Origin: Desulfobacteraceae bacterium
Lineage (GTDB): Bacteria > Desulfobacterota > Desulfobacteria > Desulfobacterales > Desulfosalsimonadaceae
NCBI GenBank assembly: GCA_021737545.1
Contig: JAIPDT010000011.1
Span: 1 to 36,185, forward strand
Reading direction: 5' to 3'
Length of the DNA: 36,185 nucleotides
Position 1 is the first letter of the stretch. Each line of letters opens with the position of its first letter. The translations under genes and the position numbers were made by a program. Positions 21,061 through 29,010 of the stretch are shown here, piece after piece. The notes under the pieces are model-generated. The model did no database searches. It was not told the DNA's origin and was given only the letters and a program-made list of their open reading frames with translations.

Positions 21061-22767
21061 ATGAGTCAGCGAGCGGTTATAATCGGTGCGGTTGCAGCAG
21101 GTTCCAAGGCTGCATGCAGGTATAAGCGCCTGTGCCAGAACGCGGAAGTTATACTTATTGATCAGGATAAATACATATCCTACGGCGGCTGCGGCATACC
21201 ATATTATGTTTCAGGCGATGTAAGCGATGAGAAAGAGCTTCGGTCCACCAGTTTTCATATGGTGCGTGACGAGAAGTTTTTCAGACATGACAAGGGAGTG
21301 GAAGCCATGACCGGCACACGGGCGTTTGCTATAGACCGGGAAAAAAAGACCGTGCGCATAGAAAAGCCGGACGGCACGCAGGCGGATCTTTCCTATGACA
21401 GGCTCATGCTCGCCACCGGATCCAGAGCCAAAAAATTAAATATTCCGGGCATGGAACTTGAAAACGTCTTCAGCGTGGCAAACCTTGAGCAGGCCATGGC
21501 AATCAAGGAGCAAATCACGACCGGGCGGATCGAAAATGCTGTTGTTATCGGCGCCGGATTCATCGGTCTTGAAATGGCGGAAGCCCTTTCTGACATGTGG
21601 GAGATCGAAACCTCGGTGGTTGAATATTGCGACCAGATTATGCCGGGGTTTGTGAGCAAAAATCTCTCTCAGATGGGGCAGCACAAAATGGAGCAAAACG
21701 GTGTGACCTTCTATCTGGGCGAGTCAGTGGAGGAGATCCAGGGACAAGACGGACGGGTCAGTGCTGTCAAAACAGAGAAACGCACACTTGAGGCCCAGCT
21801 TGTGATTTCAGCTGTTGGCATAGAGCCAAACAGCGACCTTGCACGTGATGCCGGTCTGGAAGCGGCGCCCGGCGGATTTATAGTGGTAAACGACCGGATG
21901 CAGACTTCTGATCCGGATATATATGCAGGCGGCGACTGTGTCCAGGTGGCAAACCTGGTGACAGGCAAGCCCTGCTACTATCCCCTGGGTTCAATTGCAA
22001 ACCGCCAGGGAAGGGTTGTCGGAACCAACATGGCGGGCGGAGACGCGCGTTTTAAGGGCGCGGTGGGCAGTTTTGCCGTCAAGCTGTTTGACGGGGCCCT
22101 TGCAGGGGCGGGCCTGACACCGGAGACCGCAGCCCGAGAGGGATATGACGCAGTGGGCATCCAGGTTGGCCAGTTTGACAGGGCACATTTTTATCCGGAA
22201 AAGGAAATTATATTTCTTGAGCTGGTGGTGGACACTAAAACCCGCCGGGTGCTTGGTATCCAGGGATTCGGCGGAGAGGCAAGCGGCATGTATGCCCGCG
22301 TCAATGCAATTGCTCCTCTGCTTCAGTATCATCCCTCGGTGGCCGATATCAGCAACCTGGAGCTTGCCTATTCCCCGCCTTTTGCGTCTGCCATGGATAT
22401 TGTAAATGCTGTTGCGAATGCCGCGGAAAATCATCTGGACGGCTATTACGCCCCGGCTCATATGGAGGATTTCGTCCAGTGCTGGAACAATCGGGACTGC
22501 GGTAAATATTTTTTCCTGGACTGCCGGGCTGAAGCGGATGCAAAATCGTTTGAGGAAAAATATCCTGACATCTGGAAAAGCATTCCCCATGAGCAGCTCC
22601 ATGCCAGGATAAACGAGGTGCCGCGCGACAAAACCCTGGTGCTGGTCTGCAACACCGGGGTCCGCTCCTATGAAGCACAAGTAAACCTGGCCGCCCACGG
22701 CATAACTGATGCCGTGAGCGTGGGAACGGGAATCGCGGGCATGAAGGAATGCGGCATGCGGTTTTAA
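21061..22767 (+). CDS. FAD-dependent CoA-disulfide reductase-like oxidoreductase with C-terminal rhodanese domain
   Basis: SYGGCGIPYYVSGDV, MLATGSRAKKLNIPG, VIGAGFIGLEMAEAL, DIYAGGDCVQV; C-terminal FFLDCRAEAD and LVCNTGVRSYEA rhodanese loop. Confidence 0.92.
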   Translation: MSQRAVIIGAVAAGSKAACRYKRLCQNAEVILIDQDKYISYGGCGIPYYVSGDVSDEKELRSTSFHMVRDEKFFRHDKGVEAMTGTRAFAIDREKKTVRIEKPDGTQADLSYDRLMLATGSRAKKLNIPGMELENVFSVANLEQAMAIKEQITTGRIENAVVIGAGFIGLEMAEALSDMWEIETSVVEYCDQIMPGFVSKNLSQMGQHKMEQNGVTFYLGESVEEIQGQDGRVSAVKTEKRTLEAQLVISAVGIEPNSDLARDAGLEAAPGGFIVVNDRMQTSDPDIYAGGDCVQVANLVTGKPCYYPLGSIANRQGRVVGTNMAGGDARFKGAVGSFAVKLFDGALAGAGLTPETAAREGYDAVGIQVGQFDRAHFYPEKEIIFLELVVDTKTRRVLGIQGFGGEASGMYARVNAIAPLLQYHPSVADISNLELAYSPPFASAMDIVNAVANAAENHLDGYYAPAHMEDFVQCWNNRDCGKYFFLDCRAEADAKSFEEKYPDIWKSIPHEQLHARINEVPRDKTLVLVCNTGVRSYEAQVNLAAHGITDAVSVGTGIAGMKECGMRF

Positions 22768-22968: not shown

Positions 22969-25900
22969 ATGGAAACCGGATCAAGAGTCGGCGCATTTGC
23001 CTTTGACCATCCCAGGCTTATTGCAGCGGCAATAGTCGGGGTCACAATTATTCTGGCCGTGCTTGCAGGGCTTCCCAGCCTCTGGCCTCACAGGTTCGCC
23101 CCTCTCAACTCCCTGACCATTGACACGGACCCGGAAAACATGCTGCCCGAAGACGAGAAGGTCCGGGTTTTCCATGACAGGATGAAAGAGGTCATGTCAT
23201 TAAACGACATGATCGTGCTCGGAGTTGTAAACGAGAAAAATGAAGAACACGGTGTTTTTAACCCCGAATCTCTTGAAAAAGTATATGCTTTGACAGAATT
23301 CGCCAGGGGCCTGCGATGGCGGGACCCGGATGATCCGGCCCGCAGGCAGGGGGTGGTGGAAGCAGACATGATCGCACCCTCCATGGTTGATAACGTGGAG
23401 TCAGACGGTGCGGGTGCGGTGCGTTTTGAATGGCTCATGCAGCGCCCTCCCCGGACACAGCAGGAGGCGCTTGAGGTCAGGCGCAAAGCTCTGGCGATTC
23501 CGTTTTTAAAAGGCACTCTGGTTTCTGAGGACGGCAGAGCTGTTGCCCTGTATCTGCCTATTACTGACAAGGACGTAAGCCACCGCATATCCACTGCAAT
23601 CAAGGAAAAAATAAAAAATCCCTCCCGTCTGTTTTCCTCTGAGGTGGGAAACTTCAATGAAACTTTAAAACGCCTGGTTGATGCCGCAGACGGGCATGGT
23701 GATCCCCTGGTGGAAATGCTGTGGCAGGAGCTTTCTTCCAAAACCAGACAGCAGTTGATCGAAACCCACAAAAAGTCGAATAAGTGGGACTCGGTTCTTT
23801 CGGAATACGAATCAGTTGCAAAAAGCAACGGGGCTTCGGCTGATCTCAGGCAGCAGGCAAGATTACTGTTAAAGGAGCGAAACAGTGCACTGAATGCCTT
23901 TGTATCAGATATAAACAATTGGATTAACAAAGAGCTCTCCGGAAACTGGCTTAATCCTGATCCGGAGATCAAGCAGCGCCTGGGAGAAGAAGGAAGGGAC
24001 CTGGTTGACCGGGGGAAGGCCCTTTCACCCGTTGAGCAGCAGCGTTTAAAACGTCTGTGGGCAGAGGCTGCCTTTGCCGGCAATATAAGCAAGAGCATAC
24101 GTGCCTCGCTGCAGGGGGACGAAGAGTATTATATCACCGGCCTTCCTGTGGCTGAAGACACTTTCGGTGTCCAGATGTTTAAGCAGATGGCCATTTCCGC
24201 GCCACTGGCCATGCTGATCATATTTTTGCTCATGTGGTTTTTCTTCCGCTCAATCGCAATTGTTCTGCCGGCAATGTTTCTGGCCTTGATTTCGAGCGCC
24301 GCGACCATGTCTTTGCTGGTGGTCACCGGAAACACCGTGCACATAATGAGTTCAATGATACCGATTTTTATTGTTCCTATTGCGGTGTTAGATGACGTGC
24401 ACGTGACCTCTGAGTTTTTTGACCGCTACCGGCAAAGCGGAGACCGGAGAAAAACCGTCAAGGACGTGATGAACGCCCTTTTTACGCCCATGTTTTATAC
24501 CACTCTTACCACATCGGTCGGATTTGCATCCCTGGCTCTGGCGCCCATTCCGCCGGTACAGGTGTTCGGACTGTTTGTGGCCTTCGGCGTCATAGTTGCC
24601 TGGATCTGCACGATTCTGCTGGTACCCGCCTATATCGCAGTGCTGCCGGATAAAGTGCTAAAAGATTTCGGTGCCCGTCATGTGTCCGCTGATCATGAAA
24701 GCGGGCATTCCACACTTCTGGGACGGGTGCTTCTTTCCACCGGTAAAGGGACGGTACGCTGGGCAAAGCCGATTATTGCAGCAGCCATAATCGCACTGGT
24801 GATAGCGGGCTGGGGTATTAGCAAGATCAGGGTAAACGACAACCCCACCAACTGGTTTGAACCAAATCACCCCATCAGGATAGCTGACAGGGTGTTAAAC
24901 GATCATTTCGGCGGAACCTACATGGCGTATCTGGCATTCCGGCCTCATGACGCTCCCGACATTCCGGCAGGTGAGACCGCGGAGCAGGTCCGGGCCATGC
25001 AGGATCAAGCAGGACAGGGCGCAGACCAGGGCGGCGCCGGACCCGCTCTTCCCGGAGGCATGGGAAAAAGCCCTGAAAACAGCCGAAACGGGCCGGCACT
25101 GCCCTCCGGCATGGAGAATGATTCAGGTCAGAGCGGAGCAAGCAGCCCTTCGCTTCCGGCAGGCATGGGCGAGAAATCCGCGGCCCCTGCGGATAAAACA
25201 GAATCGTCTCGGGCCGCCCGGGCGGAGGATACGGAAGAAGCCGAGCCGATTTTCAAGGATCCTGCAACTATTCGCTGGATCGGGGCCCTGCAGGATTACA
25301 TGCGCCGGGAACTCGGAGACCTGGTGGGCAAGTCAAATTCGGTGACAGATATAGTTGAAACGGTTCATCGCGAGTTGCTGGTGGGAGTGGAAAGAGACGG
25401 CCGAGCAATTACCCGTGAAGAGGCCATGCGGGTGCCTGATACCCGCGGAGCCGTGGCACAGACCCTTCTCCAGTTTCAGAACAGCCACAGGCCTCAGGAT
25501 TTGTGGCATTTTATCTCCCCGGATCATCGCACCGCAGTAGTGTGGCTGCAGCTTACCAGCGGAGACAACCGGGATATGAGCGCGGTTGTAGAGCGAGTAA
25601 ACGACTGGCTGAAGTTCTGGGCCGCTGGTGAAAAACAGGCAGAAACCATGGTCAGCCGGAATCCGGAACGATTCACGCCCGTGCTCAACTCGGTTACACG
25701 ATACATTGAAAAATCAGGGGGCGATGCGGGAAATCTCAGGGAGATGATCGCTGACTCGCCTGCAGAAGCGGTTTCGCCCTTAAAGGCGCAAATGAACGAT
25801 CTGGCCCCTAAATACCAGCTCAAACATGACTGGTTCGGCCTGACCCATATAAACGTGACATGGCAGGAAAAGATGGTAACAGGAATGCTAAGGGCGCTTC

Positions 25901-26589
25901 TGGGAAGCTTTCTCGCCGTCTTTTTGATGATGACCCTGCTGTACCGGTCCGCCCTGTGGGGTATTTTGTGCATGGCGCCTTTAACCGTGACAATTGCCGG
26001 TATATACGGTCTTATAGGATTTATAGGCAAGGACTATGATATGCCCGTGGCAGTGCTTTCCGCGCTAAGCCTGGGGCTTGCGGTTGATTATGCCATACAT
26101 TTTCTGACCCGCAGTCGTATGATGTACCCGGATTTCGGGTCGTGGAAAAAAACCGCCGGTCCGGTGTTCGGGGAGCCGGCCAGGGCGATTACCAGAAACG
26201 CAATAGTTGTTGGTGTCGGTTTTCTGCCGCTTCTGTTTGCACCGCTGGTGCCGTACCAGACAGTTGGAATCTTTATTGCGGCTATACTTTTTCTGGCAGG
26301 GGTAAGCAGCTTGCTCATCCTGCCGGCCGCCTTGACCGTCGGCGAGGGCAAGCTTTTTCCAAGAACGCTACGGGAATGCACAATGTGCAACAGGGGTACC
26401 TGCATAATAGTAATCATAACAGGCGCCGTGCTGGTTTATATAAACGTGCAGCAGTATATCCGGATGGAATGGACCACTTTTTCGTGGATCGCCCTGCCGG
26501 TTATGGCTGTTCTGGCCGGCCTGTGCGCGTGGCATTCGCGCGGTGAAAAGGCCGTAACCGAGAGTTTTTGCGAGATTGATCAATCATAA
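22969..26589 (+). CDS. MMPL/RND-superfamily transporter with Pro/Gly-rich insertion in the second periplasmic loop
   Basis: Two repeated RND-like halves with TM clusters (SIAIVLPAMFLALISSAATMSLLV; GLAVDYAIHFLTRSR; DDVHVTSEFFDRY); start at ATG 22969. Confidence 0.9.
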   Translation: METGSRVGAFAFDHPRLIAAAIVGVTIILAVLAGLPSLWPHRFAPLNSLTIDTDPENMLPEDEKVRVFHDRMKEVMSLNDMIVLGVVNEKNEEHGVFNPESLEKVYALTEFARGLRWRDPDDPARRQGVVEADMIAPSMVDNVESDGAGAVRFEWLMQRPPRTQQEALEVRRKALAIPFLKGTLVSEDGRAVALYLPITDKDVSHRISTAIKEKIKNPSRLFSSEVGNFNETLKRLVDAADGHGDPLVEMLWQELSSKTRQQLIETHKKSNKWDSVLSEYESVAKSNGASADLRQQARLLLKERNSALNAFVSDINNWINKELSGNWLNPDPEIKQRLGEEGRDLVDRGKALSPVEQQRLKRLWAEAAFAGNISKSIRASLQGDEEYYITGLPVAEDTFGVQMFKQMAISAPLAMLIIFLLMWFFFRSIAIVLPAMFLALISSAATMSLLVVTGNTVHIMSSMIPIFIVPIAVLDDVHVTSEFFDRYRQSGDRRKTVKDVMNALFTPMFYTTLTTSVGFASLALAPIPPVQVFGLFVAFGVIVAWICTILLVPAYIAVLPDKVLKDFGARHVSADHESGHSTLLGRVLLSTGKGTVRWAKPIIAAAIIALVIAGWGISKIRVNDNPTNWFEPNHPIRIADRVLNDHFGGTYMAYLAFRPHDAPDIPAGETAEQVRAMQDQAGQGADQGGAGPALPGGMGKSPENSRNGPALPSGMENDSGQSGASSPSLPAGMGEKSAAPADKTESSRAARAEDTEEAEPIFKDPATIRWIGALQDYMRRELGDLVGKSNSVTDIVETVHRELLVGVERDGRAITREEAMRVPDTRGAVAQTLLQFQNSHRPQDLWHFISPDHRTAVVWLQLTSGDNRDMSAVVERVNDWLKFWAAGEKQAETMVSRNPERFTPVLNSVTRYIEKSGGDAGNLREMIADSPAEAVSPLKAQMNDLAPKYQLKHDWFGLTHINVTWQEKMVTGMLRALLGSFLAVFLMMTLLYRSALWGILCMAPLTVTIAGIYGLIGFIGKDYDMPVAVLSALSLGLAVDYAIHFLTRSRMMYPDFGSWKKTAGPVFGEPARAITRNAIVVGVGFLPLLFAPLVPYQTVGIFIAAILFLAGVSSLLILPAALTVGEGKLFPRTLRECTMCNRGTCIIVIITGAVLVYINVQQYIRMEWTTFSWIALPVMAVLAGLCAWHSRGEKAVTESFCEIDQS

Positions 26590-26604
26590 AAGGAGTAATC
26601 GATT

Positions 26605-27471
26605 ATGAAACGATATCTTTTGAGAGTCGGAATACTGGCTTCGGTTCTGGCTTTTGCGTTTGTGTTTCAACCTGCTGCCCTGGCGCAGGACGGGGGCGAA
26701 GACATTCCTTCCGTGGAAGAAATTGTGGAACGGGCAAATCGCGTGGCCTACTATCAGGGAAAAGACGGCCGTGCGGATGTGCAGATGCGTATCGTTGACT
26801 CCCAGGGCAGGGAACGCAGCAGGCGGTTTACCATCCTGCGAAGGGATAAAGCTCCGCCGGAGCAAAGGGCCGAAGAGGCCGGCGCGGACCGGTATACCGG
26901 AGATCAGAAGTTCTACGTTTATTTCAAGGGCCCGGCTGACGTACGCAATACCGTATTCATGGTCTGGAAGCACGTGGACGAGGATACGGACGACGATCGG
27001 TGGCTTTATTTGCCGGCCCTGGATCTGGTAAAGCGCATTGCCGCCTCTGACAAGCGTTCAAGCTTTGTTGGGTCGCATTTTTTCTATGAAGACGTATCAG
27101 GCAGAAATCCGGAGCTTGATGAGCACGAGCTTGCAGACGTCACGGAGAACTATTTCATTCTCAACAACACCCCGAAGAAACCCGGGCAGGTGGAATTTTC
27201 CCGCTACAGGATGTGGATTCACCGGGATACTTACCTGCCGGTCCAGACCGAGTACTATGACGATCAGGGCGAGGCTTACAGGCGCTATACAGTGGAAAAT
27301 GTTTCCAGGCTCCAGGATTATCTTACGGTGATGAGATCCAGGATGGAGGATTTGAGAAGCGGGGGGCATACCATAATAGAATACAGTGATGTTGAATATG
27401 ATGTAGGGATTCCGGAAGACATTTTTACGGAAAGATACCTGCGGAATCCGCCCATGAATTATATCGAGTAA
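26605..27471 (+). CDS. Outer membrane lipoprotein-sorting (LolA-like) protein
   Basis: Signal peptide; RRFTILRRDK...DQKFYVYFKGPADVRNTVFMVWKH...DDRWLYLPALDLVKRIAASDKRSSFVGSHFFYEDVSGR, typical of RND-associated LolA-like proteins. Confidence 0.88.
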   Translation: MKRYLLRVGILASVLAFAFVFQPAALAQDGGEDIPSVEEIVERANRVAYYQGKDGRADVQMRIVDSQGRERSRRFTILRRDKAPPEQRAEEAGADRYTGDQKFYVYFKGPADVRNTVFMVWKHVDEDTDDDRWLYLPALDLVKRIAASDKRSSFVGSHFFYEDVSGRNPELDEHELADVTENYFILNNTPKKPGQVEFSRYRMWIHRDTYLPVQTEYYDDQGEAYRRYTVENVSRLQDYLTVMRSRMEDLRSGGHTIIEYSDVEYDVGIPEDIFTERYLRNPPMNYIE

Positions 27472-27489
27472 AAAAGCGGGGGAAAAGCC

Positions 27490-29010
27490 GTGTTCAAGAC
27501 ACTAAGGAAGCAGCAGCACCGAGCAGCGGCAGCCGCGATATTTTTTATAATCCTTTTTGCCTCGTCAATGGCCGCGGCACAAGGTCCGGCCCTGCCCGAT
27601 GGACTCGGGGAGAAAAAGCAGCAGGACCAGGAGACTGGGCCGGCCCTGCCTTCGGGGATAGACAGCGGAGGTGAAAAGCAGGAGTCTTCCGGGCCCGGCC
27701 TGCCTTCAGGCCTTGGAGAGGATCAGGGCGTCCCGGAGCCGGGAGATGACGATAGCCTGGCGGGGGTTCGGGAGCCCATGAAATGGCGTATGCCGAAAAG
27801 CGTCAAAGGATATGCAGAGATCCGCGGAGGGATGCGCATACATGATGACCCTGTTCATGACGATGCATCTTTGGCTGAGGCCAGGCTTCAGCTTTCCTGG
27901 GACAAAAGAATCGCTGAATATCTGCCGAGGGGGCGTTTTAAAGCCACCGGTGATTTGATTTTCGATGCCACTGTAAGCGACCATGATGACGCCGACATAG
28001 AAGAGGGGACAGGGCTTTTCGATCTGCGCGAGTTCAGTGTATCTTTTACCCCGCTTGATTTTGTCGACATCAGGGCGGGACGCCAGATCCTGACATGGGG
28101 TACCGGTAACCTTGTTTTTTTAAACGACATGTTTCCAAAGGATTATCAGTCGTTTTTCCTGGGTCGGGATCTTGAGTATTTAAAGGCGCCTTCTGATGCA
28201 ATAAGGGCGTCTTTTTATACGGATATCGTAAACCTGGAAATCATTTATACCCCGCGTTTTGATTCTGATCGCTTTGTTGACGGCTCCCGCCTGTCTTTTT
28301 ATGATCCCGCCTCCCAAACCATGCGCGGCGAGGATAACCCCATGGATGTAAGGCTGCCGGATGACTGGTTCGGAGATGATGAAATCGCGATGCGCGTCTA
28401 TCGCAATATGGAAGGCTATGAACTGGCCGCATATGGTTACCAGGGCTTCTGGAAAAGTCCGGCCGGGAGCGATTCTGTCACCGGAGAGCGCATTTTCCCG
28501 GAACTGTCTGTATTGGGAGCAAGCATCCGGGGAACCCTGGGGGAAGGCATCGCCAATGCAGAGTTTGCCTGGTATGACAGCAGGGATGACAGGGAAGGCG
28601 ACGATCCGTTTGTGGAAAACAGCCAGTGGCGGTTTCTGGCAGGGTATGAACAGGAGCTTGTAACGAATTTTACTATGGGGGTGCAGTATTACGTGGAATA
28701 CATGATAGATCACGATGCCTACAAAGACAACCTCCCTGCCGGGTTTCCAGCCAGAGACAGGGCAAGGCAGTGGCTGACCCTGGATCTGACTCAGACCTTA
28801 ATGGCCCAGGATCAACTGGTGCTCAGCCTGTTTACCTTTTATTCGCTGGATGAAAATGATTTTTATCTCCGGCCCGGAGTTGATTATGAATTTACAGACG
28901 AGTGGAAGTTCCGGGCCGGGGCAAACATATTCACAGGCAACCGCACCGATTTTTTCGGCAGATTCGAAGAAAGCAGCAATGTGTATGCAGCGGTGCGATA
29001 CAGTTTTTAA
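27490..29010 (+). CDS. Outer-membrane beta-barrel protein (DUF1302/porin-like)
   Basis: Signal peptide ending ...ASSMAAAQ; alternating amphipathic strands; C-terminal aromatic VRYSF; adjacent to MMPL and LolA-like genes. Confidence 0.75.
   Translation: MFKTLRKQQHRAAAAAIFFIILFASSMAAAQGPALPDGLGEKKQQDQETGPALPSGIDSGGEKQESSGPGLPSGLGEDQGVPEPGDDDSLAGVREPMKWRMPKSVKGYAEIRGGMRIHDDPVHDDASLAEARLQLSWDKRIAEYLPRGRFKATGDLIFDATVSDHDDADIEEGTGLFDLREFSVSFTPLDFVDIRAGRQILTWGTGNLVFLNDMFPKDYQSFFLGRDLEYLKAPSDAIRASFYTDIVNLEIIYTPRFDSDRFVDGSRLSFYDPASQTMRGEDNPMDVRLPDDWFGDDEIAMRVYRNMEGYELAAYGYQGFWKSPAGSDSVTGERIFPELSVLGASIRGTLGEGIANAEFAWYDSRDDREGDDPFVENSQWRFLAGYEQELVTNFTMGVQYYVEYMIDHDAYKDNLPAGFPARDRARQWLTLDLTQTLMAQDQLVLSLFTFYSLDENDFYLRPGVDYEFTDEWKFRAGANIFTGNRTDFFGRFEESSNVYAAVRYSF

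Follow-up and report, generated by a model that had tools for sequence, protein, structure and literature searches.

The window, the 36,185-nucleotide stretch of DNA analyzed here, carries on its + strand a compact set of three genes encoding an MMPL/RND pump, a LolA_like carrier, and an outer membrane (OM) beta-barrel, with intergenic gaps of 15 bases (pump to LolA_like) and 18 bases (LolA_like to barrel). The features of this set are as follows, with the basis for each call in parentheses.

22969 to 26589, + strand: MMPL/RND transporter with two periplasmic domains and an MmpL4/5- and HpnN-like fold (ORF, Pfam, AF2)
24982 to 25239, + strand: disordered insertion in the second periplasmic domain (PD2) of the pump, holding three motif copies (AF2, alignment)
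25039 to 25065, + strand: pump motif copy 1, GPALPGGMG (translation)
25090 to 25116, + strand: pump motif copy 2, GPALPSGME (translation)
25144 to 25170, + strand: pump motif copy 3, SPSLPAGMG (translation)
26377 to 26586, + strand: C-terminal Cys-rich (C-x4-C) tail of the pump with two extra transmembrane helices (subfamily comparison)
26605 to 27471, + strand: LolA_like periplasmic carrier with signal peptide, PF17131 (Pfam, E = 5.7e-58)
27490 to 29010, + strand: OM beta-barrel, a remote DUF1302 relative (AF2 barrel strands; porin, AlgE, and MOMP fold matches)
27490 to 27579, + strand: predicted signal peptide of the OM protein (inferred from sequence, with a site between MAAA and Q)
27580 to 27795, + strand: disordered N-terminal tail of the mature OM protein, with three motif copies (sequence, pLDDT below 50)
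27583 to 27609, + strand: OM motif copy 1, GPALPDGLG (translation)
27637 to 27663, + strand: OM motif copy 2, GPALPSGID (translation)
27691 to 27717, + strand: OM motif copy 3, GPGLPSGLG (translation)

The open frame of the pump begins at TTG 22915, and its start codon is probably ATG 22969 instead. Pfam placed the protein in MMPL over two stretches (69.7 bits against a cutoff of 20.5, E = 2.8e-19), and an AF2 model of residues 25 to 1224 (pLDDT 77.9) had MmpL5, MmpL4, and HpnN as its top PDB folds. Profile, AF2 topology, and the MmpL5/HpnN fold matches together place it in the MMPL/RND superfamily, which is defined by two MMPL/SSD-like repeats and by large periplasmic loops following TM1 and TM7. 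It was not the HpnN hopanoid transporter by NCBIfam, scoring 52.1 and 23 bits against cutoffs of 751.85 and 1100. The first periplasmic domain has its own large helical insertion, longer than that of most relatives (23620 to 24105, residues ~236 to 397), in which AF2 placed helices at 223 to 363.

The carrier scored 196 bits against PF17131 (cutoff 30), and its closest solved folds were Porphyromonas gingivalis LolA3 (9tp6) and a DUF1329 protein (4z48), at TMt 0.84 to 0.87 and 28 to 29% identity. Assignment of the OM barrel was less direct, with no Pfam match above threshold and no family covering its N-terminal array. The window protein matched DUF1302 (PF06980) at E = 0.0026 and 17.3 bits, under the gathering score of 23.2. 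Five of six OM proteins scanned gave weak barrel matches to DUF1302, the best at 21.6 bits (L096), and none of the six passed that score, so the barrel is described here as a remote relative of DUF1302 rather than a member.

A repeated motif in the pump and OM proteins

Translation confirmed the initial annotation, positions included, in placing a short motif in triplicate in both the MMPL protein and the OM protein, with a LolA-like gene between them. The repeats were real, but the consensus was P-x-[LM]-P-x-G-[LMI] rather than the GPALPxG[M/L] first proposed. In the pump, the insert has the sequence ...GGAGPALPGGMGKSPENSRNGPALPSGMENDSGQSGASSPSLPAGMGEKS..., and the OM protein, once mature, begins QGPALPDGLGEKKQQDQETGPALPSGIDSGGEKQESSGPGLPSGLGED..., so that its array starts 1 to 2 residues past the predicted signal peptidase site (MAAA followed by QGPALP), also as first described. 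Predicted locations on both proteins support the proposal that both segments are periplasmic. In the AF2 model of the pump, its array lies after the first PD2 strand and ahead of the next helices, in a loop with pLDDT below 50 over model residues 660 to 751 and values of 25 to 27 at the motifs.

Such arrays are not expected from composition. Shuffling each segment 200,000 times with its composition preserved never produced three motif matches. At the DNA level, the loose pattern P-x-L-P-x-G-[LMI] had 83 matches in the 2.6-Mb genome, and the only same-strand cluster was formed by these six copies. The strict pattern had seven matches, five of them at this locus; of the other two, one fell out of frame within a regulator gene, and one was antisense to smpB. 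A BLAST search with the OM protein as query picked up the MMPL insert in the same genome (E = 4e-7), and no third protein with clustered motifs was found in that genome (G000). Across 431,434 ORF residues of fetched loci, at least two copies within 40 residues occurred only in the studied OM and MMPL proteins, and in a second genome (G591), the sole motif cluster among the matches listed was its OM gene. The concern that the motif might recur at random in unrelated Pro/Gly-rich linkers therefore received no support in the form of clusters elsewhere in the genome.

To compare rates of change, pN was calculated among the window and three loci of the same genus (L048, L051, and L053), with ranges taken from the more distant pairs. 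Motif codons had pN values of 0.09 to 0.19 in the OM array and 0.07 to 0.23 in the pump array, compared with 0.40 to 0.57 for linkers between motifs in both arrays and 0.12 to 0.19 for the remaining protein. Linkers changed approximately three times faster than motif codons, which were about as constrained as the folded domains, and synonymous change was high in all three classes. This contrast argues that the motif is selected and is not a neutral low-complexity stretch. A random Pro/Gly linker was ruled out by this selection together with genome uniqueness, and recent gene conversion or DNA duplication between the pump and OM genes was ruled out because synonymous codons differ among the six copies. 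Short linear motif arrays are recognized by conserved residues repeated in a disordered, fast-evolving context. The pN contrast, the predicted disorder, and the 58 units described below support classing the repeats as a selected short linear motif, putatively a docking tag as a class.

Distribution of the motif and markers of its subfamily

The search covered overlapping samples at the level of the class (291 genomes), the order (390), and the phylum (395); a LolA query against genome contigs had returned 3 loci only, and the wider locus set came from this genome-sample search. The MMPL, LolA_like, and OM barrel set was conserved, as the initial annotation had suggested, and the OM family was present in many families of the samples. 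Beyond the window, 18 OM homologs, spread over about ten families in the phylum, carried the motif (outside the window's genus: f40, three genera of f50, f60, f74, f76, f106, f107, f111, and f138). Each had 1 to 5 copies, with the array starting a few residues past the predicted cleavage site in most. Among 58 OM units, P1, P4, and G6 were invariant, L3 was Leu in 53 (91%), and L7 was Leu in 50 (86%). Spacing between units was 11 to 21 residues, mostly 12 or 16 to 20, and linkers were free in sequence, for the most part acidic, and poor in hydrophobic residues.

On a tree of 66 barrels built with the tail removed, motif presence required 2 changes, versus 15.2 with shuffled labels, indicating that the motif belongs to one subfamily. 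Most OM homologs outside this subfamily lacked it, and their barrels began soon after the signal peptide. Second OM copies without the motif were present in the same genomes as motif-bearing copies (L060 in G241 and L082 in G269), which argues against a general envelope role. One OM protein (L098) had an acidic N-terminal tail with no motif.

The pump array had a much narrower range. Copies were confined to the window's genus, with three in L048, three in L051, and two in L053. The corresponding loop of other relatives, bounded by ...TYMAYL and IFKxPxxLxYI, was occupied by another kind of segment that looked mostly helical; in L070 it was almost empty. The pump array is thus a later gain in a loop tolerant of change. 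The expectation that the motif would be present in orthologous pump and OM pairs therefore held only in part: 18 OM homologs carried it, and pumps outside the genus did not.

Two further features tracked with the motif. A C-terminal tail, made of a C-x4-C segment followed by two extra transmembrane helices, was present in 13 of 13 pumps beside motif-bearing OM proteins versus 1 of 40 motif-less systems, a count that leaves out L050, L120, and L129 and falls within a single clade. Beyond the window, the tail was seen in L048, L049, L050, L051, L053, L056, L091 to L094, L096, L097, L099, L105, L143, and L144, often with one or two additional Cys and often with a late Cys. The exception among the motif-less systems was L105, where a Cys-tail pump accompanied an OM protein lacking the N-terminal tail. 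By comparison of sequences, the two-helix Cys-rich tail appears diagnostic of the motif-bearing subfamily and undescribed, and we know of no function for it.

The carrier also differed between systems. LolA H206 and Y228 were found in 17 of 17 motif-bearing systems and 0 of 48 motif-less systems, M247 in 17 of 17 versus 7 of 48, and Y260 in 16 of 17 versus 6 of 48; because these residues, the pump tail, and the motif all fall within one clade, the counts represent an association that is phylogenetically nonindependent. If the predicted strands are registered by hand, Y228 and M247 would come out as cross-strand neighbors, and they could mark a peptide site or an altered cargo groove. Where the operon was split, in G241 (L057/L143) and G167 (L058/L144), the LolA gene stayed beside the motif-bearing OM gene, and the stand-alone pumps located elsewhere in those genomes also carried the Cys tail. 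In G321, a genome 53% complete, no LolA gene lay beside the motif-bearing OM gene.

Candidate partners of the OM tail

A conserved repeated peptide specific to one pump, carrier, and barrel set offers a direct and cheap handle on which parts touch, and so bears on how MMPL/RND pumps, MmpL5 included, pass lipid-like cargo across the periplasm to the OM. Our tentative reading, held with a little less than even confidence, is that the repeats are a multivalent docking tail whose likeliest partner is the LolA-like carrier. The OM tail would project from the mature N terminus of the barrel into the periplasm and capture a soluble partner of its own transport system, most likely the adjacent carrier, so that a putatively hydrophobic cargo could pass among pump, carrier, and barrel, in a direction that is likewise presumptive.

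Several observations favor the carrier as partner: it must visit both membranes, G241 and G167 keep its gene next to that of the OM protein, its sequence covaries with the motif (H206 and Y228), and a pump with a LolA-like carrier is already a known unit (TOL_3187, described below). AF2 modeling of a LolA-OM fusion, made by reading through the TAA stop, left the OM array at pLDDT ~30 with no docking, although this is a weak proxy, run in monomer mode with a small alignment. Within the window's genus, PD2 of the pump has given up its usual helical segment and bears the same tag, and both membranes would then offer the carrier a docking site of one kind. The more specific proposal that identical P-x-L-P-x-G-L tags, ancestral on the barrel and newly gained on the pump, steer a LolA-like shuttle between two stations is possible but doubtful.

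The initial annotation had suggested either a docking tag or a tether joining the two membranes through the shared motif. The docking tag survives as a class, being selected and genome unique, but a paired inner and outer membrane tag is not general, since pumps outside the window's genus lack it. For the same reason, the ancestral function cannot have been a tether built from one motif shared by the two membranes; outside the genus, the motif is on the OM protein only. A different kind of conduit, in which the OM tail docks on the periplasmic domains of the pump and the pump array of this genus acts as a pseudo-ligand or regulator of that site, is unlikely. Motif-bearing OM proteins and Cys-tail pumps do co-occur (the 13 of 13 versus 1 of 40 above), even with the genes apart in two genomes, and MmpL5 has a 196-residue PD2 insertion needed for efflux and thought to reach toward an outer membrane factor (PMC12501195). 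However, AF2 left the array unpacked on the pump itself, and a pump that was the receptor while carrying the ligand would bind itself. The same tag on the pump is better explained by a shared soluble ligand than by binding of one array to the other.

We consider it improbable that the tail acts on its own barrel, by plugging or gating the lumen or by signaling folding or insertion. Its position a few residues from the signal peptide cleavage site does resemble that of a barrel plug segment, and OmpU structures with and without the N terminus were among the fold matches. Against this, the AF2 barrel model left the tail disordered, a plug needs no variable set of 1 to 5 copies, the same motif on the pump would be left unexplained, and a general insertion signal would also be expected on the second OM copies of G241 and G269, which lack the motif.

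There is also a slim chance that the tail binds a partner outside the system, such as peptidoglycan, a redox partner, or another periplasmic protein. Redox or sulfur genes neighbor some motif-bearing loci: a CoA-disulfide-reductase-like flavoprotein (flavin reductase) with a rhodanese domain lies upstream of the set in the window's genus (window positions 21061 to 22767), and thioredoxin and DUF302 (L056, 1049 to 1913), DUF302 (L057, 6272 to 6778), and a YeeE-type Sulf_transp protein (L097, 5487 to 6908) lie upstream at others. At other motif-bearing loci, the neighbors are RmuC, T2SSE, or a hydrolase, and this mixture indicated no consistent substrate. The lack of a third clustered-motif protein, in the window's own genome and among the matches listed for G591, also weighs against an outside partner, although a receptor need not carry the motif. 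Finally, a neutral low-complexity Pro/Gly linker copied between adjacent genes would fit the variable copy number (1 to 5 in OM proteins, 2 to 3 in pumps) and the motif-less tail of L098, but is highly improbable given motif codons constrained relative to linkers, a P-P-G invariant across ten families, and no clusters elsewhere.

Relation to known pump and carrier systems

Canonical LolA and LolB handle lipoproteins received from LolCDE and are marked by a conserved Arg in LolA and a protruding Leu in LolB. The carrier of the window resembles them at the level of fold alone. Its structural match, P. gingivalis LolA3, bound the LolB of that species only very weakly and has neither the conserved Arg of LolA nor the protruding Leu of LolB (PMC13103446).

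The gene set itself is of a known kind. According to the available excerpts of two reports, Thalassolituus oleivorans TOL_3187 is a single protein that combines an MMPL with a LolA-like domain and shows 42-fold induction on the n-C28 alkane (PMC6304351), and Porphyromonas and Prevotella have iron-regulated MMPL/lipoprotein-sorting operons (PMC10434189). All share with the window an MMPL pump and a PF17131-type carrier as a functional or genetic unit, to which the window set adds a DUF1302-like barrel as a third gene. In those excerpts, substrates differ or lack assignment, and, unlike in the window, no motif array is reported for TOL_3187 (PMC6304351) or the Porphyromonas/Prevotella operons (PMC10434189). 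Searches with the motif string matched only unrelated papers, and nothing in the literature they covered described the array. The invariant P-P-G, in 1 to 5 copies, provides a sequence signature for recognizing the subfamily.

Mycobacterial MmpL4/MmpL5, Burkholderia HpnN, and the window pump share the RND fold with two periplasmic domains. Like the window pump, MmpL5 has a long PD2 insertion, in its case required for function (PMC12501195). That insertion is a coiled coil, whereas PD2 of the window pump carries a disordered motif array, seen in one genus, and its relatives have a mostly helical stretch.

Two minor observations extend beyond the phylum samples. A search of a plasmid collection returned two remote matches, in Ilyobacter (41% identity) and Prevotella (24% identity). 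A contig labeled as a Lentisphaeria MAG (L050) encodes a Cys-tail pump and a LolA 56% identical to that of the window, stopping before the OM gene; its presence in a record assigned to another phylum reflects either transfer or a binning error.
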